Shown here piece after piece: positions 1-22,894 of a stretch of DNA of 64,000 bases. Under the pieces are notes generated by a model. That model searched no databases and was not told the DNA's origin. It saw nothing but the letters and a program-made list of their open reading frames with translations. Source of the DNA: Ekhidna lutea (lineage in GTDB: Bacteria; Bacteroidota; Bacteroidia; Cytophagales; Cyclobacteriaceae); the NCBI RefSeq assembly GCF_900188325.1, contig NZ_FZPD01000005.1:372001-436000 (forward strand), read 5' to 3'. Within the stretch, counting starts at the first letter, position 1, and each line of letters begins with the position of its first letter. A program made the translations under genes and the position numbers.

Positions 1-2148
1 ACGGTAGATTTTTACGGCTCAAATAATTTTGGTGACATCAGATCATGGATTGCCTTATACCCGAAGGTCAAGGAATCGCACAAAAACGCATACCAATTTT
101 TCATGACTATTGGTGCAAACATTGACATCAGTGTGGTGGCAGGTAGTGAGGTTCGAGAGCCTAAAAAGTTTGAGTTCAAGAAAGTGGACAGCTACCAAGA
201 TGCCTTATCTTATTTTCAATCGGTAAAGGAAGAGGTGATTACCATTAACAAAGGGCTGAAAAACTTCTTCAAGTTCGCCCCGGGTCCACAGGCAGCTGAA
301 TGGGAAACGTTTCGATCTCAGAACATAGCCGCCTTGGACTTTAGCGAATTGGAGGTGGGCGATATCAGTCAGTATGGCTCGCTGGCTGAACTCAATGTAG
401 CAGCAGGGCTTCCGGAAGACAGTCAGTCCAATAAGACTTGGAATTTGTGGCATTTCTTCAATGCCAACAAAGGGGATGTCCTATTTGCCACACGAGGAGT
501 TTCAACTTGTCTTGGAGTCGGCGTGATTGACAGTAAGTACGAGTACAATACAAGTACCGATAGTTACCGACATACAAGAGAGGTGAAATGGATAGTGGAT
601 AAGGTCTACCAATATAAGTCCAATGACTTGAAGGGATACAAAAACCTTTTCAGACCTGACACATTTAGTCCGGTTTTGATTTCGGACTTTTTACTTTCTG
701 AGTATGTACGTCTATATCCAGAACTCACTACTGTTTTTGCCAAGGACAAGATAGAAGTGAAACCAATCACCAAAGCATCGGAGAAAGCGAAAGAGGAAGT
801 TGATGAAATTGAGGAGGAAGTTGGTGAGGAAGCTTCATTCTGGTGGTTGAATGCTAATCCCAAAATGTGGAGCATTACCTCTCATAATGTGGGTGATGTC
901 CAGACTTATACCTCTCGCAATGAGAGAGGGAACAAGCGAAGAATTTATAAGCATTTTGAGGCGGTGAAACCCGGCGATTTGATGATAGGTTATGAGAGTA
1001 GTCCTGTCAAACAAGTGAAGGCCTTATTTCAGATCACCAAAGGACTGCATACTACCCAAGAAGAAGGAGAAGTCATTGAGTTTGAGTTACTGGAAAAACT
1101 CGAAATTCCGATTGACTGGAGTGAGTTAATTGACATCAAAGGATTGATCGAATGCGAGGTGTTGATTAACAATCAAGGCAGCCTTTTCAAGCTTACAGAA
1201 GATGAGTTTGACATCATCCGTGACCTGGTGGATAGCCGTAACATTGAGTATGAAAAGAAACAGGTAGGGGCTAAGAAAAAGGCGTACACCTATGAAGAAG
1301 ATGCCGATAAACCATTTATTCCTATTGATGAGTTTCATTCGATTACCCAGCTGCTCCTGAGAAAAAAGAATATTATTCTTCAGGGACCTCCTGGTGTTGG
1401 AAAAACCTTTGTTGCAAAGCGGATTGCGTACGAAATCATGAAAGAGGCCAATGATTCGCAAATTGAAATGGTGCAATTTCATCAGTCGTATGCGTACGAA
1501 GATTTTATTCAAGGCCTTCGGCCATCCACATCAGGGTTCAAAAGGAAAAATGGCATTTTTTATTCTTTTGCAAAGCAAGCACATGCGCATCCTGATAGAA
1601 AGTTCTTTTTCATCATAGATGAAATCAATCGAGGTAACCTTAGTAAGATTTTCGGAGAGTTGATGATGCTCATTGAGCATGATAAGCGATCTTCCAATAA
1701 TGCCATCAAACTCACCTATGCTGAAGACGAAGAAGAGTCCTTTTATCTTCCAGAAAATCTTTATCTGATAGGGACAATGAACACCGCGGATCGATCATTG
1801 TCAATTGTAGATTATGCCTTGCGTAGAAGGTTTTCGTTTATCAGCCTTAAACCCAATTTTGGTGAAGTATTTCTTGAATTCTTAAAAAGCAAGAATGTGA
1901 GTCCAGATTTTGGCAAGAAGCTTTCCCAAGCACTTGAAGGAGTAAATAAATCCATAAGAGAAGATGATAATTTAGGTGATGGTTTTCAAATTGGTCATAG
2001 TTATTTCTGTCCCTCTGAAAATATTACCAATGAGCAGGAATGGTTTCAGAGTATCATAAGATTCGAAATACATCCATTGCTGGACGAGATATGGTTTGAT
2101 GATTCAGATCAGGTGTCGAAGATGTTATCCGCATTAACCATTGCTTGA
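1..2148 (+). CDS. mcrB: McrB-like GTPase/AAA+ subunit of a modification-dependent restriction system (5' end outside window)
   Basis: Motor subunit of a McrBC-type restriction system: it reads modified DNA through N-terminal modules and uses NTP to drive translocation that activates the McrC nuclease. The frame is open from base 1 with protein-like sequence before the first ATG (103), so the gene starts left of the window. N-terminal modules include an EVE-like region (about 832-1030, starting FWWLNANPKMWSI). The AAA+ core shows Walker A GPPGVGKT (1384-1407), Walker B DEINRGN (1618-1638), the McrB signature GTMNTADRS (1771-1797) and a downstream LRRRF arginine segment. An acidic linker lies at about 770-830. 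The stop overlaps the mcrC start. Family call is firm from the motifs; the modification recognised cannot be told. Confidence 0.93.
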   Translation, partial: TVDFYGSNNFGDIRSWIALYPKVKESHKNAYQFFMTIGANIDISVVAGSEVREPKKFEFKKVDSYQDALSYFQSVKEEVITINKGLKNFFKFAPGPQAAEWETFRSQNIAALDFSELEVGDISQYGSLAELNVAAGLPEDSQSNKTWNLWHFFNANKGDVLFATRGVSTCLGVGVIDSKYEYNTSTDSYRHTREVKWIVDKVYQYKSNDLKGYKNLFRPDTFSPVLISDFLLSEYVRLYPELTTVFAKDKIEVKPITKASEKAKEEVDEIEEEVGEEASFWWLNANPKMWSITSHNVGDVQTYTSRNERGNKRRIYKHFEAVKPGDLMIGYESSPVKQVKALFQITKGLHTTQEEGEVIEFELLEKLEIPIDWSELIDIKGLIECEVLINNQGSLFKLTEDEFDIIRDLVDSRNIEYEKKQVGAKKKAYTYEEDADKPFIPIDEFHSITQLLLRKKNIILQGPPGVGKTFVAKRIAYEIMKEANDSQIEMVQFHQSYAYEDFIQGLRPSTSGFKRKNGIFYSFAKQAHAHPDRKFFFIIDEINRGNLSKIFGELMMLIEHDKRSSNNAIKLTYAEDEEESFYLPENLYLIGTMNTADRSLSIVDYALRRRFSFISLKPNFGEVFLEFLKSKNVSPDFGKKLSQALEGVNKSIREDDNLGDGFQIGHSYFCPSENITNEQEWFQSIIRFEIHPLLDEIWFDDSDQVSKMLSALTIA

Positions 2149-3179
2149 TAGTGATTCCTATTCAAAATATATATTATCTGCTATGCTATGCGTGGAACAA
2201 GCTAGATGAAAAAGATCATGTCAAAGTTGATGGAGATGATCTGACTAATCTTGTGGATTTATTTGCGAAGATTTTGATAAATGGAACCAGAATACTCTTA
2301 AAAAGAGGACTGGATAGTAATTACAAGACCAAAGTAGAAACGATAAATGGGGTGAAAGGGAAGATTGATTTTGGCACTTCCCTTAAAAGAAACCAATTTG
2401 CTCAACTCCAAGCTACATGTGAATTTGATGAGTTTTCCTCTGATGTAGTTACCAACCAGATTTTGGTAGCTACAATGCACAGTATACTAAGGATTGAAAC
2501 AGTTGATAAAGAGCTCAAGAAACAAATTAGAGGATTGATTTTGCGCTTTCCTGAAGTATCTCATATCGCTCTATCCAAAAATCATTTTGAGTCAGTCCGG
2601 TTACATCGAAACAATCAGTTTTATGGTTTCTTACTAGATGTATGCAAAATCATCTTCGATTCGATTCTCCCCGCGGAAAACAAGGGTGAATACTCATTCA
2701 TTGATTTCACTAAGGATGAACGAAAGATGAATCAGCTTTTTGAACATTTTATATTCAATTTTTATCGTCAACATTATTCAAAAAGTCAGGTGAGAAGGGA
2801 TCATATCAAATGGCAGTTTACTTCCACCAATGATATCGATCACAAATACATTCCTCAAATGAAGACGGATATTACCATCGAAAGGAATGGTCAAAAGACA
2901 ATCATTGATGCAAAGTATTACAAGGAGACTTTGTCCTCATTTTATGATACTGAAAAGGTCAAGTCCGTAAACCTATATCAGATATTTTCCTATCTGCTAA
3001 ACCAGAGAGATGGTACGGAAGGGTCGTCAAAAACAAAGGGTATTTTATTATACCCCACCATAGACAAGGAGTATAATTTAGTATACCAATACGATAAACA
3101 TCCAATTCAAATTAGGACTGTAGATCTAAATCAACATTGGACATTAATTGAGGAGAGGTTAATGAAAATTTTAAGTTAG
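2145..3179 (+). CDS. mcrC: McrC-like nuclease subunit
   Basis: Nuclease partner of McrB, about 344 aa, the usual McrC size. The C-terminal half holds the PD-(D/E)XK core: D242 in KTDIT, then D255-A-K257 in IIDAKYYK, the form typical of McrC. The N-terminal part, starting IPIQNIYYLLCYAWN, is also typical of the family. The start used is TTG at 2145, overlapping the mcrB stop (TTGA); GTG at 2151 is an alternative, and no ATG fits. The coupling implies co-translation with McrB. The next gene begins 4 bases after this stop, so all three genes should share one transcript. Confidence 0.92.
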   Translation: MIVIPIQNIYYLLCYAWNKLDEKDHVKVDGDDLTNLVDLFAKILINGTRILLKRGLDSNYKTKVETINGVKGKIDFGTSLKRNQFAQLQATCEFDEFSSDVVTNQILVATMHSILRIETVDKELKKQIRGLILRFPEVSHIALSKNHFESVRLHRNNQFYGFLLDVCKIIFDSILPAENKGEYSFIDFTKDERKMNQLFEHFIFNFYRQHYSKSQVRRDHIKWQFTSTNDIDHKYIPQMKTDITIERNGQKTIIDAKYYKETLSSFYDTEKVKSVNLYQIFSYLLNQRDGTEGSSKTKGILLYPTIDKEYNLVYQYDKHPIQIRTVDLNQHWTLIEERLMKILS

Positions 3180-3183
3180 TACC

Positions 3184-4890
3184 ATGGCACAGCTCCCAAA
3201 TCTTCCCGGTTATGCAACCATTTCCAAATTAGGCGGAGGGGGTTTTGGTAATGTCTATTTAGCCAAAGAAAATGTTTCAGGAAGACTCGTCGCTATAAAG
3301 TCTTTAAAAAATGACGATCCTGATGTTCAGCAAGAGTTAATTGATGAAATTCAATTGATTGCAAAACTTGATCAACCCAATGTTGTGAATTACTATCATC
3401 CAATAATTCATGATAATAAGATTCACTTTGTGATGGAATATTGTGAACGAGGAGATTTATATAAAGGGAAGGGTACACAGCAAGAAATAATTAGATGGAT
3501 TACAGATTGCTCATATGCTTTGTCAAAATTGCACGATGAGGGAGTGTTTCATAATGACCTGAAACCAGGTAATATTCTAATTTCTAATAATGGGATTGCT
3601 AAGATTAGCGACTTTGGTTGTGCAAACCTTTATCGTGGCACAATAGCATTTATGCCTCCTGAGTTCCTTGCTGGTGAATTCACCACACTGCAGGACCCAA
3701 GGCGTGATGTGTATGCTTTGGGTCTTACACTTTTGGAGTTGCTGTGTGGTACTAATCCTTTTTACGATCTTGAAAGAGAACAAATTATTGAAAAGCACTT
3801 AGCTGGGGACATTTGGATGGCCGATACCCCAGAGTGGTTGCAGGAAGTTATTCTGAAGTCTATGCATAGAATACCGGAGTTGAGGTTTCAATCAACACTA
3901 GAATTTGCAGAAGCACTAGAAGCAAAAAGTATACCCTCGATTTTAAATAAAAGAAAGTTACTTGCCGGAGCATTAGCGAAGAAAATAGATAATCTTTCAC
4001 GTCAGAAAAAGTGGGCTAAAGCTAGGTCAGTCGTGGATGCCGGGCTGATAGAATATGCTGATGATGTATCAGTCCTAAGAGCATCTGGAGCCTTCTTTCT
4101 TAAAAGGAATGATTTAGCTAATGCATATTCAACGCTTTCTAAGGCTGTTAAGATTAACCCAAGGGTTGATATTCAAAAAGAGCTCGGACTTTGTCAATTG
4201 GAATTAGGAAATCATACCAAAGCCATTAGCTTAATTAATGATCATCTATCTCGGTCTGGCTTAGATCTGGAAGCTTATAATGCACTAATTAGGTGCTATT
4301 ATGAGACAGGACGATATGAATATGCAATTGATTTAGCCAACGAATTACTTTCAACAAAATCCATGAAATTGGACTGCCTAGTTAATAATAAAATGATTTG
4401 CGAAATAATGAGGGAGAAATGTTCTTTCGACCATCTACTTAGATCTCCTAATCCTTTTATACAATACCATCTAAAACTTATATCTGAAGATAAAGAAACT
4501 TTTTCTCGGAATGGTAAGCCATCTTTAAAGTCCAAATTGTTATTTCAAGAATATCGATTCGATCGATTAAGGGATGGAGCAAATAGCTTTTGGATTTCAA
4601 AGTCTGCAGAAAGTACAACAGGCCATCTCAGCGAAATATCAAAAGCCATCTATCGGATTGGTCGATTAGATTATGAAAATGATTTGGAATTTCCAACCAA
4701 CAAGGTTAGCCGTAGACATGCGGTAATTATCAATCAGAGAAATGATGTTTGGTTATATGATTTAGGCAGTACAGGAACGCAACTTAATAGAAAACAAATT
4801 TCAAAGTCACCCATAATGGATAGGAGTAGTATTACGATCAATAAAGATTTCTCCTTCAGCTACATCTCTGATCCCACAAAACTTTTGTAG
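3184..4890 (+). CDS. Hanks-type Ser/Thr protein kinase with TPR middle and C-terminal FHA domain
   Basis: Predicted cytoplasmic kinase of 568 aa in the McrBC operon, 4 bases after mcrC. Kinase domain about 8-250: glycine loop LGGGGFG (16-22), K39 in VAIK, catalytic loop H123-N124-D125 with K127 and N130, DFG 143-145, then GTIAFMPPE (152-160). HRD has become HND (a non-RD kinase) and only 14 residues lie between DFG and PE, a very short activation loop. Residues about 260-440 read as TPR-like helical repeats. An FHA domain ends the protein: R494 in RIGR, SRRH (509-512) and DLGSTGTQLN (526-535), the phosphothreonine-binding set. No membrane segment is seen. Position suggests phospho-signalling tied to McrBC; that is inference. 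Its last 35 bases overlap the convergent gene. Confidence 0.9.
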   Translation: MAQLPNLPGYATISKLGGGGFGNVYLAKENVSGRLVAIKSLKNDDPDVQQELIDEIQLIAKLDQPNVVNYYHPIIHDNKIHFVMEYCERGDLYKGKGTQQEIIRWITDCSYALSKLHDEGVFHNDLKPGNILISNNGIAKISDFGCANLYRGTIAFMPPEFLAGEFTTLQDPRRDVYALGLTLLELLCGTNPFYDLEREQIIEKHLAGDIWMADTPEWLQEVILKSMHRIPELRFQSTLEFAEALEAKSIPSILNKRKLLAGALAKKIDNLSRQKKWAKARSVVDAGLIEYADDVSVLRASGAFFLKRNDLANAYSTLSKAVKINPRVDIQKELGLCQLELGNHTKAISLINDHLSRSGLDLEAYNALIRCYYETGRYEYAIDLANELLSTKSMKLDCLVNNKMICEIMREKCSFDHLLRSPNPFIQYHLKLISEDKETFSRNGKPSLKSKLLFQEYRFDRLRDGANSFWISKSAESTTGHLSEISKAIYRIGRLDYENDLEFPTNKVSRRHAVIINQRNDVWLYDLGSTGTQLNRKQISKSPIMDRSSITINKDFSFSYISDPTKLL

Positions 4891-5551
4891 CCTTCATTAA
4901 TTCCAGATTGATAAAAATATCTGCCATATATTTCGATAATTTGTGCCTGCGGATTCCAAGGAAAGACTTCATGAGTGCAATAGCACCTTCCCATTCTTCT
5001 TTCGTCTTTGGACCTTTCACAGTTTCATCATTGATGAAATAAACATTGATAAGATAAGCTGGAATATTATTAAGAGTTCTCAGATACCATAAATGTGCAA
5101 TACGGTTAGTGTATTGATAAAAGGTGCTGGTCCAGTCATACTCATTTTTGACATTTAAATCTGCTTTTACTCTTTCTAGGCTTTTTTGAATTAATTGAAA
5201 AGACACATCACTTGCTTGCGTCCCCGGACTTACGATTTCTGGGATATTTGCTTTTGCTTCAACTAGAATTGGAGAAGAACCTGATTTACCAAGAGCATCC
5301 CACTGTGGTCCTCTAGATGGCCAGAATTCTTTCAACGGATGAGTTGGCTGAACACCTATCTTTTGAATGAAATTCTCATCTCGATACTCTGCAAACTCAT
5401 CTTCTTTTATTGGTGAAAGCCATTCAAATTCCTTCAGTTTTGGAAATTGCTTGGAAAGTTCATTATTAAGAAATTCGGGATGATGGTTAATCAAGATTTG
5501 AATGTCTCTCAGACTCCCTTTTCCATCAGATTTTTGCTTGATCCTACCCAT
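4856..5551 (-). CDS. Predicted PD-(D/E)XK nuclease-like protein
   Basis: Unnamed protein of about 231 aa, last gene of the leftward unit. From ATG 5551 the motif GPQWDALG (D85) followed 13 residues later by ILVEAKA (E98, K100) matches the D...(E)XK pattern of the PD-(D/E)XK nuclease fold; the rest is alpha/beta with no membrane segment. I could not assign a named family. The start was chosen at 5551 because it overlaps the upstream stop by 8 bases (ATGGGTAG); an in-frame ATG at 5587 would overlap by 44 bases. The 3' end overlaps the kinase gene tail by 35 bases on the opposite strand. A DNA-cleaving effector role is inferred only. Confidence 0.7.
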   Translation of the reverse strand: MGRIKQKSDGKGSLRDIQILINHHPEFLNNELSKQFPKLKEFEWLSPIKEDEFAEYRDENFIQKIGVQPTHPLKEFWPSRGPQWDALGKSGSSPILVEAKANIPEIVSPGTQASDVSFQLIQKSLERVKADLNVKNEYDWTSTFYQYTNRIAHLWYLRTLNNIPAYLINVYFINDETVKGPKTKEEWEGAIALMKSFLGIRRHKLSKYMADIFINLELMKATKVLWDQRCS

Positions 5552-6053
5552 TTCCAGTTTGACTAAATTTTGTTTGCTTTGATGCAATCCTCAGCTCTAT
5601 CATTTTAATGACTTCTGCTGAAAATCCATTCCTTTTATAAATCCACAACATGACCTGTTTTTGAACAAGATCAAGAAGCGCATTGACACTTAATCTATTA
5701 AAAACAATAAAGGATGATATAGAAGTTAGAAGAGTGACCACCAGCATCGTTCCTTCCAGAGCACTGATCCAAGGAATACCAAAATAAATCAGAAAACCAT
5801 TGACTCCCAGAAAAACAACTATGACAAGGCATGCAATCATTCGAAACATAGTTTGTGCTTTTTTCTCCAGCTGGGCTTGTTTCTCTCTAGCTAATTTCAA
5901 CCGAATCAAATCATCACTTATCTTTTTCTTTAAGCTACTCACTTTACTTGATACAGCATCAGTAGGAGCCTTTGCCAAGAAGTAGGTGGCCAATAGGATT
6001 ATTGCAACGATTACAATTACCCAAATGACAATTTTCCATTCTTTTCGTTCCAT
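5544..6053 (-). CDS. Small membrane protein with coiled coil
   Basis: Unknown protein of 169 aa. One transmembrane helix at the N terminus (about 6-27, IVIWVIVIVAIILL), a charged coiled-coil stretch (about 38-68), then two more hydrophobic helices (about 70-92 and 97-115) and a soluble tail. No enzyme motif is visible. ATG 6053 is preferred over GTG 6056 because the upstream stop and this ATG share a base (TGATG). It sits between the 57-aa protein and the predicted nuclease, all overlapping, so the three are likely translationally coupled. It could tether the cassette's nuclease or sense the membrane; neither is shown by sequence. Confidence 0.75.
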   Translation of the reverse strand: MERKEWKIVIWVIVIVAIILLATYFLAKAPTDAVSSKVSSLKKKISDDLIRLKLAREKQAQLEKKAQTMFRMIACLVIVVFLGVNGFLIYFGIPWISALEGTMLVVTLLTSISSFIVFNRLSVNALLDLVQKQVMLWIYKRNGFSAEVIKMIELRIASKQTKFSQTGNG

Positions 6054-6226
6054 CACTTCTCCTTTCTAACTCCCTTGAAGGGCTTGCCATCTTGTTTTAC
6101 ATCCATAAACTTCCCTGTTTCAACATCCCGCTTTACCCACTGATGCGTCTTGGTGTTTTGGGTTTGAGATCTCCCTCTCACTGCCCCTTTTCTGGCGTTA
6201 TCTCCGTATGGTTTATTTGTTGCCAT
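6053..6226 (-). CDS. 57-aa basic small protein
   Basis: Short gene, ATG at 6226, TGA at 6055-6053. The protein is hydrophilic and basic, with NARKGAVRGRSQ near the N terminus, WVKRDVETGKFMDVK in the middle and PFKGVRKEK at the end. I recall similar small proteins in other bacteria but know no function. It starts 12 bases after the DUF2779 gene stop and ends by sharing a base with the next ATG, a tight fit that supports a real gene. Its charge would allow nucleic-acid binding or a role as partner of a neighbouring nuclease; that is inference. Confidence 0.72.
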   Translation of the reverse strand: MATNKPYGDNARKGAVRGRSQTQNTKTHQWVKRDVETGKFMDVKQDGKPFKGVRKEK

Positions 6227-6238
6227 ATTCGTACTTGA

Positions 6239-8191
6239 TTAGTTACTTATTAAATCCTGAAACCCCTCCCAAAGCATCACCATGGCCAGTGTATCCAGCT
6301 CGCAGTAATGGTAAAGCGCCGCGATGGTGGCTTTTCTTTCTACTTCACTCATTTCATCAAACTGCATGTAGTTGTAAGCGGTCATCGCTGCTCCTCCGTC
6401 TTCCAATTCATCCGTTGGATTGATCAATCGATCCACCTCATCTCTATCATGCTTTTCCCATAGTTTGGGAAGCTGTTTGTATGGGCTTAAAAGCCAATCA
6501 CCATCCTTTTGCAGCCAGATATGATCCTTGAAATTCAAACTTTCGATTTCACTACCATAGATCGGTTCACCGTACTTTCCTTGCAGCTTTTTACTTCTAT
6601 TGAGAATGGAAGGAAGTATCGCTTTAAGCGAATTGGAGCCATTTGTTTCCGGATCGTAATAGAATCGCTGCACCCAATCGCACAGGTCGATCATATCTCT
6701 TGGGCCGGCAAATTCTGCAGCATCCTTTCCCTTGCCTTCTGTACGATGTGTAATGGAATCAATGAATTTAATCAGTCGATCACTGTCAGTCTCATCCGAG
6801 ACCACTAGCTGCCTCCGTATGGCGTTTAATATAGTATTCTCATGGTGTGAGTATCTGAATACACTGCCGCTATCGTTGGCCAAAGCATCTCGCAATGCCC
6901 GAACGAATTCGAAATTGGGAAATCTCCCAGGCACTTCATTGATCCATTGTGTCGAGTGTCTCACCGATCCATCTTTTTCAATAATGTGATGAGAAAATTG
7001 AAACGCATGTTGCTCATAAGGTCTTGTTCCTTTGTGAAAAGGAATAGGCACAGCTGTTGTTTCAAAATCTATCATATGAAGAGGATAGGTCACTTGAGAC
7101 ATTTCGAATGCCAAACCCTCTCGATCCAAGTAAATAGAGTTGTCCTTTTCGCGTGATTTCTCGACCTGCATGCGTTGGCGCTCTGCTGACTGAAGGCCTG
7201 ATTTTGGTGGATTTGCTTTGATATTCCCTAACTCCTCAGGATCCACATCTTTTTGGAGGTATATCCCATCCTTTATGAAGCTATCTGTTTTTCTGGAGTT
7301 CCAAATACTCGTAACCAATGGCTGTGATACTTGTTCATTGGATAATGGCGTCATAGAAGTCCAGCACTCATGAAATCCACTTTTTAGGCCATTTTCTGAG
7401 CGGAATTGACAGCTTTTGCAAGCTCCCGAAACGCCAAACTCGAGTTTCTTATCAGCAGCATAGGCTTCTGAAAGTGCATGCACATAGTCTGCGAACGAAA
7501 GTTCTTCATCACCGAGCATTTCCTTTCCGTTCCAGATTAGCTCAATGGCATGATCTACATTCTCCGCTTTTAGGATCGGAACACCTAAATCATCCGTATC
7601 TTTTGCAGTAATGGATAATCTGCCAGTGCCAGTATCATTGATTAAAAATCGTTGATACAGGCCATCCACGGTAGCATTCACTGTTTTGTCAGCAAGCATG
7701 AGCATTCCCTCCACGGTAAACTCAGGATATGCTTTAGTCAAAACGTGTTTCTGAAAGGCAACATCGTATAAGTATGGCTTCCATTCTGATTTGATGCCGG
7801 TTTGGGTATAAAATTCATCGACCGTTCTGAGTGACTTGGATTTTACTTCAATCAACTTCACATGGTTCCCTTTTTTCACAAGCACATCTACACGGACAAA
7901 CAAATTTTCAAACCTGATCGCCGCTTCATAGATGATGACATTTTCTTGCTTTAGCAATTCTTCAGTTTGACTCAAGGATTCTTCATAATCGAGTGAATCA
8001 ATATCATGGCCTCCGGAAAAGTAATACTTAGCCAGTTCACCCACTTGGTAGCCGCCTTTGGCTAGTGCCATTAGGAAATCATCCGTCTGAGAATTATCCG
8101 CATACTCATCCTTCTTACCAGTGTAGAAGAGTTTTGTGGGACACTCCAGTGCTTGCTTAAACCTTGACTTTGTTAAATACCTTGGTCTCAT
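6239..8191 (-). CDS. DUF2779 protein: Cas4/RecB-like Fe-S nuclease domain plus DEDD-type exonuclease-like domain
   Basis: 650-aa protein with two nuclease-like parts. The N-terminal half has D102 (VRVDVL) and E115-V-K117 (LIEVKSK) of a RecB/Cas4-type PD-(D/E)XK site. Cysteines C17, C258, C261 and C276 are arranged one before and three after it, as in Cas4/AddB 4Fe-4S nucleases. The C-terminal half is the DUF2779 region: HMIDFET (D375, E377), a middle FRYSHHENT segment, and HYCELDTLAM near the end, which resemble the Exo motifs of DnaQ-like DEDD enzymes. It lies 32 bases after rmuC and 12 before the 57-aa gene. Known DUF2779 proteins lack a settled role. A DNA end-processing function is inferred from the motifs. 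Confidence 0.85.
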   Translation of the reverse strand: MRPRYLTKSRFKQALECPTKLFYTGKKDEYADNSQTDDFLMALAKGGYQVGELAKYYFSGGHDIDSLDYEESLSQTEELLKQENVIIYEAAIRFENLFVRVDVLVKKGNHVKLIEVKSKSLRTVDEFYTQTGIKSEWKPYLYDVAFQKHVLTKAYPEFTVEGMLMLADKTVNATVDGLYQRFLINDTGTGRLSITAKDTDDLGVPILKAENVDHAIELIWNGKEMLGDEELSFADYVHALSEAYAADKKLEFGVSGACKSCQFRSENGLKSGFHECWTSMTPLSNEQVSQPLVTSIWNSRKTDSFIKDGIYLQKDVDPEELGNIKANPPKSGLQSAERQRMQVEKSREKDNSIYLDREGLAFEMSQVTYPLHMIDFETTAVPIPFHKGTRPYEQHAFQFSHHIIEKDGSVRHSTQWINEVPGRFPNFEFVRALRDALANDSGSVFRYSHHENTILNAIRRQLVVSDETDSDRLIKFIDSITHRTEGKGKDAAEFAGPRDMIDLCDWVQRFYYDPETNGSNSLKAILPSILNRSKKLQGKYGEPIYGSEIESLNFKDHIWLQKDGDWLLSPYKQLPKLWEKHDRDEVDRLINPTDELEDGGAAMTAYNYMQFDEMSEVERKATIAALYHYCELDTLAMVMLWEGFQDLISN

Positions 8192-8223
8192 AACGAGTCG
8201 TTTTATACCAAATTAATCATTTC

Positions 8224-9504
8224 TCAGCTCGCCATCTTCTTTAGAAGCTCTTGTCGATCGCCTCCTGGCTTAACTTTTGCTCCAAGATCTTCTATTCTTG
8301 TTGCCACCTTGATCACATTATTCCTTCCAGTAGAAAGCCTTTTGTATGCACTTTCATAAGCAGTCTTAGCATTGTCAAGTCCTTTTCCAACTGTGTGCAT
8401 GTCTTCCAGAAATTTCATGACTTGACCGTGTAGTTTTCCTGCCTCCTCAGCTATAAGCTCCGCGTTTTCATACTGCTTATTTCTTTGCCACAAGTCAGAG
8501 ACAATTTTCAATGACACGAACAAAGTGGAAGAGGTGGTTATCATCACATTTCGTTCTATGGCATATTGAAATAAGTCCGGATCAGCCTGGATTGCAGCAA
8601 TCAAACTTCCTTCAATGGGCAGGAACATGAAGATCATATCTGGTGAATTGATTTGATAGAGGTCTTCGTATCTCTTCTTGGCCAGTTTGTCTATATGATT
8701 TCGCAAGCTCTTGATATGATCCTTCAGCTCGGCTTTTGCCTCATCTCCTTTAGTGCTGCAAAAACGAGTATATGCATTCAGCGACACCTTAGAGTCAATA
8801 ACAAGATGTCTATCATCAGGTAGATTTATTATGACATCCGCTCTTAGTCGGTGCTCATCAGTTACACCAGCCACTTCTCTTTCATAGTGAAGCTTTTTCA
8901 CGAGACCTGCTTTTTGCAGGAGCGTTTCAAGAATTTGCTCGCCCCAGTTTCCTTGATGTTTAGGATTCAGAGTCAGCGCATTGGTTAGATTACTTGCTTC
9001 CATTTGCAATTCGTGATTCAACTTGCCAAGTTGCTGCAATTCACCTCTCAATGAAGTGGTATCCTTAATTCTGCTTTCATTCGTTTCCTTAATCTGTCGT
9101 TCAATCTTCTCCAGAGATGAACCCAGTGGCTTCAGGATTTGATCCAATTGCTCAGACGAATCCTTTTTGAAGTTGTCGGAATTAGTCCTAGCTATCTTAG
9201 AGGCCATTGACTCGAATTGAGACATCATCTCCGCTTGTATTTCTTTTAGCCTCGCTTTTTCTTTCTCAACGTTGGCCACCTCGTTTTTTAACTGGGTTCC
9301 CAAAACCGCGTTTTCAGTTCTCAGTTTTGTCAACTCATATTCCTTCTCATTCCTGTCGGCTAAGACAGTTTCATGAATATCCTTTCGGACATACTCCTTT
9401 TCAACAGTTACTACTGTTAAGGAAACACTTTGCTTACGCAATAGGTGAACGCTGATCAATCCGCAGACCACCAGCCAAACAATTGATGTAATTAATATTT
9501 CCAT
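8224..9504 (-). CDS. rmuC: RmuC family DNA recombination protein
   Basis: Membrane-anchored RmuC-type protein: N-terminal helix (about 3-23, LITSIVWLVVCGLISV), a long coiled coil (about 30-140), then the RmuC nuclease-like domain with LRADVIINLP and HLVIDSKVSLNAY, a D...DSK pattern of the PD-(D/E)XK fold. RmuC proteins limit DNA inversions and have been linked to defence islands. ATG 9504 is preferred to TTG 9531 because it places the helix directly at the N terminus. It is the first gene of the leftward unit; one of the two operator palindromes lies 57 bases upstream. Its copy inside an island beside DUF2779 suggests a cargo rather than housekeeping role. Confidence 0.9.
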   Translation of the reverse strand: MEILITSIVWLVVCGLISVHLLRKQSVSLTVVTVEKEYVRKDIHETVLADRNEKEYELTKLRTENAVLGTQLKNEVANVEKEKARLKEIQAEMMSQFESMASKIARTNSDNFKKDSSEQLDQILKPLGSSLEKIERQIKETNESRIKDTTSLRGELQQLGKLNHELQMEASNLTNALTLNPKHQGNWGEQILETLLQKAGLVKKLHYEREVAGVTDEHRLRADVIINLPDDRHLVIDSKVSLNAYTRFCSTKGDEAKAELKDHIKSLRNHIDKLAKKRYEDLYQINSPDMIFMFLPIEGSLIAAIQADPDLFQYAIERNVMITTSSTLFVSLKIVSDLWQRNKQYENAELIAEEAGKLHGQVMKFLEDMHTVGKGLDNAKTAYESAYKRLSTGRNNVIKVATRIEDLGAKVKPGGDRQELLKKMAS

Positions 9505-9560: not shown

Positions 9561-9579
9561 TGTTCAGTGATGCTGAACA
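9561..9579. promoter_or_regulatory. Operator site 1 (TGTTCA-N7-TGAACA), upstream of rmuC
   Basis: Perfect inverted repeat TGTTCAGTGATGCTGAACA (7-bp arms, 5-bp centre). It shares the TGTTCA-N7-TGAACA pattern with site 2. It lies 57 bases upstream of the rmuC ATG, where a repressor would control the leftward unit. The WYL protein is the natural candidate to bind it. Confidence 0.65.
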
Positions 9580-9593
9580 ACTGATAAAAACAT

Positions 9594-9626
9594 AAAAAAA
9601 AGACCGAAACTCCTTGAGAATCGGCC
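9594..9626 (-). terminator. Leftward hairpin with T run between the two operators
   Basis: On the minus strand GGCCGA...TCGGTC (9626-9602, one G-U pair, further pairing inside) is followed by eight T (9601-9594). It points toward rmuC but no complete gene lies upstream of it, so it is either an attenuator in the rmuC leader, a guard against read-through from antisense transcription, or the end of a lost gene. Confidence 0.55.
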
Positions 9627-9716
9627 TTTGTCTAAATGGGTGGTTTACCTGGATAGGATCAAATGGAACACCTAGAGACAGGTAATTATTTTGATGTAGC
9701 AAGACTAATAGGAGGT

Positions 9717-9735
9717 TGTTCAATGATTGTGAACA
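9717..9735. promoter_or_regulatory. Operator site 2 (TGTTCA-N7-TGAACA), upstream of the WYL gene
   Basis: TGTTCAATGATTGTGAACA; the flanks extend the palindrome to 8-bp arms, GTTGTTCA and TGAACAAC (9715-9737). It ends 27 bases before the WYL start codon, the usual place for autoregulation. Centre-to-centre distance to site 1 is 156 bp. Confidence 0.68.
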
Positions 9736-9762: not shown

Positions 9763-10767
9763 ATGCCCGACAATAAAAAACCTTCGATCAGGTACATAAT
9801 AATTGACCGTTGTATTCGTAACACAGCAAGAGATTATGGGTTGTCTGAGTTGCTCGCTGCAGTTAACGAAGAGTTGATTGATAGGGGAGTAGAACCAATA
9901 AAAAGCAGAACAACTATATATACAGATATAAATGATTTAGAATTTCAATTCAATGCCCCAATTGAGAAGGTGCAAAAAGGGAATAGGACCTACTTTAAAT
10001 ATTCAGATCCTAATTATTCTTACGGAAATCAACCACTAAATCAAGAAGAAATTGAACACTTGAGGGATGCAGCCAATATACTTAGTAAGTTCTCTGGTGT
10101 TCCAGGGTTTGATTGGATACATGATATAACATCAAAGCTTGAAATCGGTACATTCAAAGAATCTGGTGATCCTAATGTTATATCATTTGATTCAAGCGAA
10201 TTTCTTAAGGGTAAAAATTTTATTGGACCAATATTCCATGCTATTGTTAAAAAGAAAGTTCTGAAAATATCGTATCAAAAATTCAAAAGCAGCAAAGAGA
10301 AAACTCATCAAGTTCATCCGTATCATTTAAAAGAATATGATAGTAGGTGGTATATCTTAGGCTATTTACCGCATATTGATGACCTGATCACCTTAGGCGT
10401 TGATAGAATTAATAAAGTTGAGGTTGTTAAGAATGATAGCTTTATAGACAATGAAAGGTTTGATTTCGTAGACTATTTTGAGGATTTGATTGGAATCTGG
10501 AAGGAGAAAGATGTAAAGCCAATCAATGTTAAATTAAAGTTTTCCAAAAAGATGTCAGATTACATTCTGACTAAACCAATTCACGGATCACAAAAGGAAA
10601 GGTCTTTGGATGACGGTAGCTTGTTGGTTGAGTTAGAAGTAATCCCTAATTATGAATTAGAAAACCTAATACTCTCTTTTCATAGTCATGTTGAGGTATT
10701 GGAACCAGAATCATTTCGAAATAGGATAATTGAATTGATTACAGATGCAAAATCAAAATATGAGTAG
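9763..10767 (+). CDS. WYL-domain transcriptional regulator
   Basis: 334-aa DNA-binding regulator: winged helix-turn-helix N terminus (about 8-80), WYL domain (about 150-240) with the signature segment YHLKEYDSRWYILGY (WYIL 196-199), and a C-terminal WCX-like extension (about 245-330). WYL proteins sense ligands, possibly nucleic acid fragments, and commonly repress phage-defence operons (BrxR and CapW types). It is transcribed away from the RmuC/DUF2779 unit, and one of two matching palindromes lies just before each transcription unit. Autorepression plus control of the leftward operon is the natural reading, inferred from layout. Confidence 0.92.
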   Translation: MPDNKKPSIRYIIIDRCIRNTARDYGLSELLAAVNEELIDRGVEPIKSRTTIYTDINDLEFQFNAPIEKVQKGNRTYFKYSDPNYSYGNQPLNQEEIEHLRDAANILSKFSGVPGFDWIHDITSKLEIGTFKESGDPNVISFDSSEFLKGKNFIGPIFHAIVKKKVLKISYQKFKSSKEKTHQVHPYHLKEYDSRWYILGYLPHIDDLITLGVDRINKVEVVKNDSFIDNERFDFVDYFEDLIGIWKEKDVKPINVKLKFSKKMSDYILTKPIHGSQKERSLDDGSLLVELEVIPNYELENLILSFHSHVEVLEPESFRNRIIELITDAKSKYE

Positions 10768-21297: not shown

Positions 21298-22572
21298 TTA
21301 TGAAAAAGCGCTTCTCATCTGCTCCTTAATTGTTTCCTTGTCTATTCCATAATAGTGTTTGATGATGATCTCAACGCTTTTACCGGTAATCTCTGATACA
21401 GCTTTAGGAGAAATGCCTTTCTTTCCGCACAATGAAATAAAGGTCTTGATAGCTATGTGAGAAGTGATTGTTTTCCATTTGGGTTCATACTTGTATGACT
21501 TATTTCCGGAGGATGTTTTAATCAGTTCTACTTGACTATGAATTTTGGCTATATCACAAGCTTCTTTGATATAGGAATTGAATTTTTGTTCCGAGAGTTG
21601 AGGAAGCTCATAGTTGTATTTATCTAGTATTTCAAGTGGCCGTTTTGTCAATGGAACAAAGAGATCGTTCTGATTTTTATATGCTCTCATTACAATGGCC
21701 TCATCATGGATATGATTTTTATTTAATCTTTGTAAATCTGAGTAGCGCAGACCAGTGTAGCAGTTCAATACAAAAACATCTCTAACTCGTTCATATTTTG
21801 TTTTTTGGAAAGTATGATAGTATAACTGATCTATTTCGTTTTCTGTGAGATAAATAATTGTCTTGTCAATTCGAGGCACCTTTATTTTTGAGGCGATATC
21901 AGGTACATCATAATTTCTATCAATAAGGTAGTTGAGAAACACTTTTATATTCCTTAGGGATGTGCCAGCGGAGTTGTCAGAAATGCCTTTTTCTTTTCCT
22001 CCTGGTTTAACAAGATCATTATGTAGGAATCTTCTGAAATCATCTATTAAATCAAGACTGATGTTTGATAACCTTAGTGGCGATTTAAGTTTAGCTGTTT
22101 GGTATTTTTCTAAATGATAGATAGCCGTTCTATAGTTTGCTTTTGTTCCATCGCTTTTGGAAGTTTTCTTAACAAAATCTTCAAACAATGGGATGAGCTC
22201 CAGATCAACCCTAGGTGTAGGGGACTCCTTTTCAAAATACTTGTTTTTGACCAGACCTACTTCTGGATCAATCTTGTTTAGTTGGAGCTTCCGTGCAATT
22301 TGCAGAATCCTGGACTTAGCATGTTCAATTTTTGTATTGACGATAAGGTCTGATTGTCTTTTGGACTCAATGAGATCCTCATTCAGTTTTGTCTTACGAA
22401 TCCCTTTAGTTGAATTTACCTTTTGATTTTTTTCATCCCATTGAGAAGCCACTACTTTGACGCCTGAGCTGATGTCTTTTACTTTTTGATGATGTCCATA
22501 TCTGAGGTAGATAACAGCCTGGCCGTTGCTATTAACCTTGTTCTGTCTTATGAGTGCTTTTACTGTTGCCAT
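21298..22572 (-). CDS. Tyrosine recombinase (island integrase)
   Basis: 424-aa integrase of the Bacteroidota type: Arm-binding N terminus (MATVKALIRQNKVNSNGQ), SAM-like core-binding domain (about 110-215), catalytic domain (about 230-420). Visible catalytic residues are R in CYTGLRYSDL, H in SHIAIKTF, and Tyr in IIKHYYG. The usual HxxR arginine is replaced (HIAI) and the GH before the tyrosine helix reads GK, so the active site is not canonical. This may be a subfamily trait or loss of activity. It lies at the island's right end, reading inward, 145 bases from a 47-bp repeat that includes tRNA 3' sequence, as expected for the enzyme that inserted the island. Confidence 0.88.
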   Translation of the reverse strand: MATVKALIRQNKVNSNGQAVIYLRYGHHQKVKDISSGVKVVASQWDEKNQKVNSTKGIRKTKLNEDLIESKRQSDLIVNTKIEHAKSRILQIARKLQLNKIDPEVGLVKNKYFEKESPTPRVDLELIPLFEDFVKKTSKSDGTKANYRTAIYHLEKYQTAKLKSPLRLSNISLDLIDDFRRFLHNDLVKPGGKEKGISDNSAGTSLRNIKVFLNYLIDRNYDVPDIASKIKVPRIDKTIIYLTENEIDQLYYHTFQKTKYERVRDVFVLNCYTGLRYSDLQRLNKNHIHDEAIVMRAYKNQNDLFVPLTKRPLEILDKYNYELPQLSEQKFNSYIKEACDIAKIHSQVELIKTSSGNKSYKYEPKWKTITSHIAIKTFISLCGKKGISPKAVSEITGKSVEIIIKHYYGIDKETIKEQMRSAFS

Positions 22573-22647: not shown

Positions 22648-22716
22648 CGAAAATTTAAAAAAAGCATTTAAATCAATTAAAAGCCAATTAATGACAAATA
22701 AAGCTATATTGGTTCG

Positions 22717-22763
22717 AATCCGACTGGAGGCTCTCAGAACCCACTCGTTTGAGTGGGTTTTTT
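22717..22763 (+). other. Attachment-site core, copy 1 (tRNA 3' fragment plus terminator)
   Basis: A 47-base sequence identical to 22848-22894. With the preceding GGTTCG it reads as a tRNA T-loop (GGTTCGAATCC) and acceptor 3' strand (TGGAGGC), followed by a perfect terminator hairpin AACCCACTC-GTTT-GAGTGGGTT and T run. No tRNA body lies upstream, so this is a 3' fragment of the kind left at one end of an element inserted in a tRNA gene. Confidence 0.7.
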
Positions 22764-22847: not shown

Positions 22848-22894
22848 AATCCGACTGGAGGCTCTCAGAACCCACTCGTTTGAGTGGGTTTTTT
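22848..22894 (+). other. Attachment-site core, copy 2
   Basis: Second identical 47-base copy, 131 bp after copy 1; here the T-loop bases before AATCC are different (AAGT). Between the copies lies an 84-base spacer with the hairpin GAACCA / TGGTTC and GC-rich sequence. From 22895 to 23093 I see no gene, RNA or repeat. Two tandem cores suggest stacked insertions or a duplicated tRNA tail. Confidence 0.6.

Follow-up and report, generated by a model that had tools for sequence, protein, structure and literature searches.

Does a tightly packed row of nuclease-like genes facing a single regulator make up one defence system, or a stack of separate parts under one controller? The question is raised by a five-gene leftward operon of Ekhidna lutea that lies within the window, the whole 64,000-nucleotide stretch of DNA analysed here. 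The operon encodes, in order, an RmuC-family protein, a DUF2779 protein, a small basic protein that we call S57, a membrane protein and a protein with a PD-(D/E)XK motif, and it stands opposite a gene for a WYL-domain regulator (Table 1). Our analysis indicates that this is probably a composite, modular defence operon, repressed by the WYL protein and carried as cargo by an integrative element at a tRNA-Thr gene. A sequence-only reading had taken the five genes for a single system in a defence setting; its operon, its WYL regulator and its defence island were upheld, and its single system was not.

The five genes do not travel together. Among 22 neighbourhoods of DUF2779 relatives (mean 15.3 kb, several ending at contig ends), a tblastn search for partners found RmuC, S57, the membrane protein and the PD-(D/E)XK protein in none, and four of four loci with PD-(D/E)XK relatives (L060, L061, L203 and L204) held none of the other operon genes. 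We also examined up to 6 kb on each side of S57 in 80 loci, the best scoring of at least 538 relatives confirmed in a wider genome scan, so that all S57 counts lean towards close relatives. RmuC, the membrane protein and the PD-(D/E)XK protein were present at 0 of these 80 loci and DUF2779 at 2. Because co-occurrence is lacking around the DUF2779 and PD-(D/E)XK genes, the five genes are not a unit, and the idea of one conserved five-gene system was rejected on these counts.

A WYL gene was found in 10 of the 22 DUF2779 loci, one of which also contains McrB. In an Algoriphagus locus (L090) the order is DUF2779, WYL, S57, a ThsB-type TIR protein and a 1255-residue protein. In locus L127, DUF2779 and WYL are divergent from S57, a 49-residue open reading frame (ORF), a two-transmembrane (2TM) effector and a gene that clusters with cyclases of the cyclic-oligonucleotide-based antiphage signalling system (CBASS). 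The window holds DUF2779, WYL and S57 in an order different from both, and it is mainly because these three loci recombine the same three pieces that we read the operon as composite. In one other genome (G143), a single contig carries both S57 and DUF2779 with about 14 kb between them, farther than the compared stretch reaches.

Within the window, all five ORFs are open on the minus strand, and direct checks of translation and spacing agreed with the packing first described, as they did with co-directional nuclease-like genes facing a WYL regulator. RmuC and DUF2779 are separated by 32 nucleotides (nt) and DUF2779 and S57 by 12 nt. The S57 and membrane-protein genes overlap by TGATG and the membrane-protein and PD-(D/E)XK genes by ATGGGTAG, and within the operon such start–stop overlaps are confined to these three genes. 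The TTG starts called by the ORF finder (9531 and 5587) are better replaced by ATG at 9504 for RmuC and at 5551 for the PD-(D/E)XK-motif protein, the latter agreeing with the beginning of the homologous region in two relatives.

The 258-bp gap between the RmuC and WYL genes contains two copies of TGTTCA-N7-TGAACA, one before each divergent gene. TGTTCAN7TGAACA occurs at two sites in the 4.2-Mb genome, both at this operon, the backward control pattern at none, and adding the shared GAT to the pattern gave the same result. A pair with the same arms arose in 16 of 20,000 first-order Markov resamples of the intergenic region. Allowing up to one mismatch, the window holds only these two copies; shuffles averaged 0.35, and 2 of 100 reached two. 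The protein encoded alongside carries WYL and WCX domains and, at its N terminus, a weak HTH_11 match (E 0.016; 15.5 bits against a cut-off of 25). CapW and BrxR (PMC9122588, PMC9122601) are likewise regulators adjoining defence operons and bind palindromes at such positions near promoters; they control other target genes, and the window sites are putative operators. By eye, a hairpin-like stretch flanked by A and T runs (9594-9630, GACCGAAACTCC...GAATCGGCC) lies between the two palindromes; it was not called by a terminator scan and may separate the divergent promoters. Also by eye, loci L114, L120, L127, L131 and L146 have a GCAnATnnnnTGC-type palindrome-like site, unlike the window palindrome, between WYL and S57.

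The RmuC protein has a single N-terminal hydrophobic stretch (residues 3-21) followed by the RmuC domain, as judged by hydropathy and Pfam. At least 243 of 395 genomes of the same phylum have an RmuC match; among the matches listed none exceeds 41% identity to the operon protein, and a second RmuC elsewhere in the host genome is 37% identical to it. The operon resembles Shield (PMC10270631), which comprises an RmuC-domain protein with an N-terminal transmembrane helix (ShdA), sits in a defence island often near a WYL gene, and has its partners downstream. The likeness is to the description of ShdA; the source reports Shield only in Pseudomonas, with partners ShdB (M15-peptidase-like) and ShdD and ShdE (no known domains), whereas the operon instead has DUF2779 and S57.

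The DUF2779 protein covers the PF11074 profile over positions 1-126 of 126 and combines an N-terminal Cas4/DUF83-like region, with four conserved cysteines, and a C-terminal DEDD exonuclease-like domain. In an alignment of 13 sequences selected from the matches, C17, C258, C261 and C276 are invariant, as are D102, E115 and K117 (a D plus ExK motif) and D375, E377, D502 and D633, so that the DEDD residues are intact. We take these to be the motifs known as Cas4-like (iron–sulfur (Fe–S) nuclease), DEDD and PD-(D/E)XK, and presume the usual definition of the Cas4-like one. A match occurs in 62 of the 395 genomes, this one included, and scanning viral contigs with the DUF2779 single query found nothing. 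Like the window protein, the PF11074 family has an RNase H-like domain of the 3′–5′ exonuclease clade fused to DUF83 (PMC3985635); the accessible part of that source gives no experimental function, and the protein stands here in a multi-gene operon.

S57 is a basic protein (computed isoelectric point 10.4) and matches PDC-S38, a named PADLOC candidate model, over positions 1-57 of 57 (E 8.5e-34). AlphaFold places strands at 19-24, 29-34 and 40-43 with a mean predicted local distance difference test (pLDDT) score of 62.3, so that the three short strands are predicted with low to moderate confidence. No PDB entry matched by sequence, and a fold search of the PDB with the model gave a best E of 2.9 and nothing of weight. 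S57 has a match in 20 of the 395 phylum genomes, this one included, and the best 80 relatives span many phyla by their record titles. Searches under PDC-S38, an S57 peptide motif and small genes in immune operons turned up no account of it, in a literature scope outside which most subscription papers and preprints fall.

S57 often stands ahead of unrelated immune operons: CBASS, Pycsar, Thoeris and type I restriction–modification (R-M). A co-directional ORF of at least 45 residues lies within 120 nt downstream in 51 of the 80 loci; the first such ORF has at least 90 residues in 35 of the 51 and starts within 15 nt, or overlaps, in 25. Of 81 downstream proteins, 7 carry SMODS as recognised by Pfam (E 1e-4); 3 each carry TIR_2, patatin, PycTM or a type I R domain, and 2 each SAVED or prok_STING. 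PADLOC matches included cyclases, 2TM effectors, PycTM, PycC and REase_I. Twenty hand-chosen downstream proteins were tested individually and 13 matched PADLOC at 1e-8 or better: 11 of 18 first genes and both second genes (L127 and L148), with two of the 13 (L116 and L138) matching mainly PADLOC candidate models. In the phylum loci, Pfam identified PycTM (L071), a cyclase (L078), Cap15 with SMODS (L085) and a ThiF-domain protein (L083) downstream. PADLOC models also match, at 1e-10, among 52 proteins beside control genes, in 31 families; of the 25 families listed, GajA/GajB, Old, AriA, LeoA and LeoBC have one member each. The sequence sets are A3 (81 of 83 downstream proteins), A4 (69 of 76 distinct genome S57 proteins plus that of the window) and A2 (7 of the 21 in A1). 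The S57 family was already a PADLOC candidate; the present analysis describes how it is associated with genes of CBASS, Pycsar, Thoeris and R-M and with controllers.

On a Vibrio gigantis plasmid (L210), an ATP-binding gene and a helix-turn-helix (HTH) gene are followed by S57 and then by a hydrolase–SAVED–nucleotidyltransferase operon. The labels CapK and CapS for the first two come from annotation, size and reading, and neither gene matches PADLOC. CapK+CapS are regulators upstream of diverse immune operons, as in this S57-bearing locus, and the accessible part of their description (PMC13373217) places yegP behind capKS and does not mention S57. Tiny proteins also follow S57 in two loci, a DUF2188 and a KTSC protein (L208 4001-4392 and L209 4001-4488); tblastn did not find them in other S57 loci. 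Together with yegP, they hint at a class of small accessory genes occupying one slot.

Neither of the two genes that follow S57 has a named family. The membrane protein has hydrophobic stretches at residues 8-26, 73-91 and 99-117, the first two of which are separated by a charged segment. Its Pfam matches all fall below the curated cut-offs (best PIG-F, 19.9 bits against 24.2), it has no PADLOC match, and no convincing relative was found in the 395 phylum genomes outside this one, in plasmids or in viral contigs; two weak matches in the 395 genomes (E 1.7e-4 and 7e-4; 25-34% identity) were not counted as relatives. Searches of Pfam, PADLOC and NCBIfam with the PD-(D/E)XK-motif protein gave no match reaching E 1, and no PDB entry matches it in sequence. 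D85, E98 and K100 (E98-A-K100) are invariant in its four aligned sequences. It has a match in 4 of the 395 genomes, this one included, the other three being two near-full-length relatives and a fragment (genome G203, E 2.3e-6; neighbourhood L062) that lies outside the four loci tested for partner genes. Viral-contig scans found none with the single query and one relative with the aligned query. In L060 (3-9153), the relative's open frame is extended at the N terminus, and the gene adjoins relatives of the SNF2/PLD helicase and Eco57I-type pair of the window's element. A likeness to Cap18 (exonuclease) and Cap19 (three transmembrane helices) of a CapW-controlled CBASS (PMC9122588) was also considered.

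The distal three genes could form a self-contained, undescribed unit led by S57 and appended to an unrelated RmuC–DUF2779 pair, which we regard as possible though somewhat doubtful. Start–stop overlaps occur among these genes only, and elsewhere S57 stands just before membrane effectors (PycTM in L071, Cap15 in L085 and, after the 49-residue ORF, 2TM in L127). The membrane protein's lack of a convincing relative in the 395 genomes, and PD-(D/E)XK relatives that stand without it, argue the other way.

Less likely is that S57 is a passenger, a small gene hitch-hiking on immune-operon promoters and unrelated to immunity. It does occur in Streptococcus prophages near repressor and integrase genes, and a 5.1-kb Klebsiella plasmid (L201 2401-3550) carries a divergent WYL–S57 pair with no recognised effector alongside, which may be the most compact form that the association takes in nature; many of the 80 loci also have no controller, or no long gene downstream. 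Two results oppose this. First, pairs of S57 genes differ at a median of 28% of protein positions against 72% of shared fourfold sites (2628 pairs with at least eight such sites, from 73 ungapped sequences of 79 read). Conservation of the protein while synonymous sites are near saturation indicates strong purifying selection over a long divergence. Second, controller genes lie within 1.5 kb of S57 in 23 of 80 loci (WYL in 10, ImmA/IrrE in 13) and in 0 of 29 RmuC control loci, which are from the same phylum, are somewhat longer (mean 4105 versus 3083 bases) and are unmatched in island context. The 20 phylum loci supplied the ImmA queries and one of the WYL queries; their own rate of 10 in 20 is therefore circular, which leaves the 23 of 80 as the sole test. 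This query set missed two WYL genes within 3 kb (L155 and L162) that another query found. The ImmA/IrrE neighbours may be CapH+CapP-like.

The operon is itself part of something larger. Two copies of a 26-bp repeat, one beside a tyrosine integrase gene and one 32.9 kb upstream at the 3′ end of a tRNA-Thr gene (gene L063:9760-9834, repeat L063:9810-9835), bound an element of about 32.9 kb (G000:C11:361810 to 394734) that contains the cassette. Profile searches of the island's proteins showed that the surroundings are defence genes and not a housekeeping region: the element's other defence cargo comprises an SNF2/PLD helicase, a type IIG R-M protein (PADLOC, 967 bits), an AbiC-like protein, McrB and McrC, and it further carries a kinase–TPR–FHA protein and replication-type genes (DUF5906 and Toprim). 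That RmuC and DUF2779 serve this element's ordinary recombination or repair, rather than phage defence, strikes us as improbable. RmuC and Cas4-like proteins are recombination-related families and the host has a second RmuC, yet the pair lies among the defence genes of the island, not with the DUF5906, Toprim or integrase genes, and opposite a WYL regulator.

The weakest alternative, a single new multi-subunit system in which RmuC and DUF2779 act with the S57, membrane and PD-(D/E)XK proteins, has tight spacing, start–stop overlaps and one shared palindrome pair in its favour, yet is made highly unlikely by the co-occurrence counts above and by L090 and L127, the two S57 loci with DUF2779 nearby, where a WYL gene stands in between.

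Several observations weigh against the composite defence operon that we favour. The PADLOC model RTasRmuC gives the host's other RmuC 547 bits and the operon RmuC 310; because the other protein scores higher, the model does not discriminate, the match is uninformative and it was dropped as evidence. There is no co-directional ORF within 120 nt in 29 of the 80 S57 loci, the first ORF is shorter than 90 residues, maybe by chance, in 16 of the 51 that have one, 7 of the 20 tested downstream proteins have no PADLOC match, and 57 of the 80 loci have no detected WYL or ImmA gene within 1.5 kb. The site common to the five WYL–S57 loci seen by eye differs in sequence from the window palindromes. The AlphaFold model of the PD-(D/E)XK protein, built from two sequences, has a mean pLDDT of 35.5, too low to support the fold.

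Under the composite, modular reading, the WYL protein, CapW/BrxR-like, would sit on the two palindromes and repress both divergent promoters until infection or DNA damage freed them. The transcript would then supply stacked modules, each separately acquired: a membrane-anchored RmuC, a predicted nuclease analogous to ShdA of Shield; the DUF2779 protein, a predicted Fe–S/DEDD nuclease that would degrade foreign or damaged nucleic acid; and a distal module of S57, the protein with three predicted transmembrane helices and the PD-(D/E)XK-motif protein. S57 would be a transferable accessory of immune operons and not a dedicated subunit of this one.

Table 1 Features of the operon and its carrying element (window coordinates).
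Feature	Position	Strand	Evidence
RmuC-family protein, 426 aa from ATG	8224..9504	-	Pfam PF02646, E 4.7e-92; hydropathy
DUF2779 protein, 650 aa	6239..8191	-	PF11074, E 1.4e-21; motif residues in 13 sequences
S57, 57-aa basic protein	6053..6226	-	PADLOC PDC-S38; phrog_12550
Membrane protein, 169 aa	5544..6053	-	Hydropathy
PD-(D/E)XK-motif protein, 231 aa	4856..5551	-	Alignment of 4 relatives
WYL-WCX transcription regulator, divergent	9763..10767	+	PF13280 and PF25583, each E 1.1e-14
Operator-like palindrome TGTTCAGTGATGCTGAACA	9561..9579		56 nt before RmuC ATG
Operator-like palindrome TGTTCAATGATTGTGAACA	9717..9735		27 nt before WYL ATG
Tyrosine integrase, adjoining right repeat on inner side	21298..22572	-	PF00589, PF13102, PF17293
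Right attachment repeat, 26 bp identical to tRNA-Thr 3′ end	22709..22734		Repeat match

Elsewhere in the element, the left part of the window (103-4890) encodes an McrB-like protein with an EVE domain and McrC, followed by the Ser/Thr kinase with TPR and FHA domains, whose gene and the PD-(D/E)XK gene end in a 35-nt convergent overlap. The tRNA-Thr repeat recurs in part, over 18 bp, at 22848-22865, 139 bp past the start of the right repeat, possibly as the scar of an earlier insertion.

A broader proposal, which we consider quite possible while short of an even chance, is that S57 is a general, cross-phylum immunity accessory acting between DNA-damage controllers (CapW, CapH+CapP and perhaps CapK+CapS) and many unrelated effectors. 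As a sensor, damper or licensing factor common to these operons, it might act on a nucleic acid or a conserved host component, and in the window it would lead an undescribed membrane plus PD-(D/E)XK unit. Genes that look like a neat cassette can be interchangeable parts stacked under a single controller, a point of weight when defence systems are called from gene order. S57, cross-phylum in range and small enough for rapid genetics, could be tested as a part common to CBASS, Pycsar, Thoeris and restriction operons, and it bears on how such dissimilar immune operons are safely switched on.

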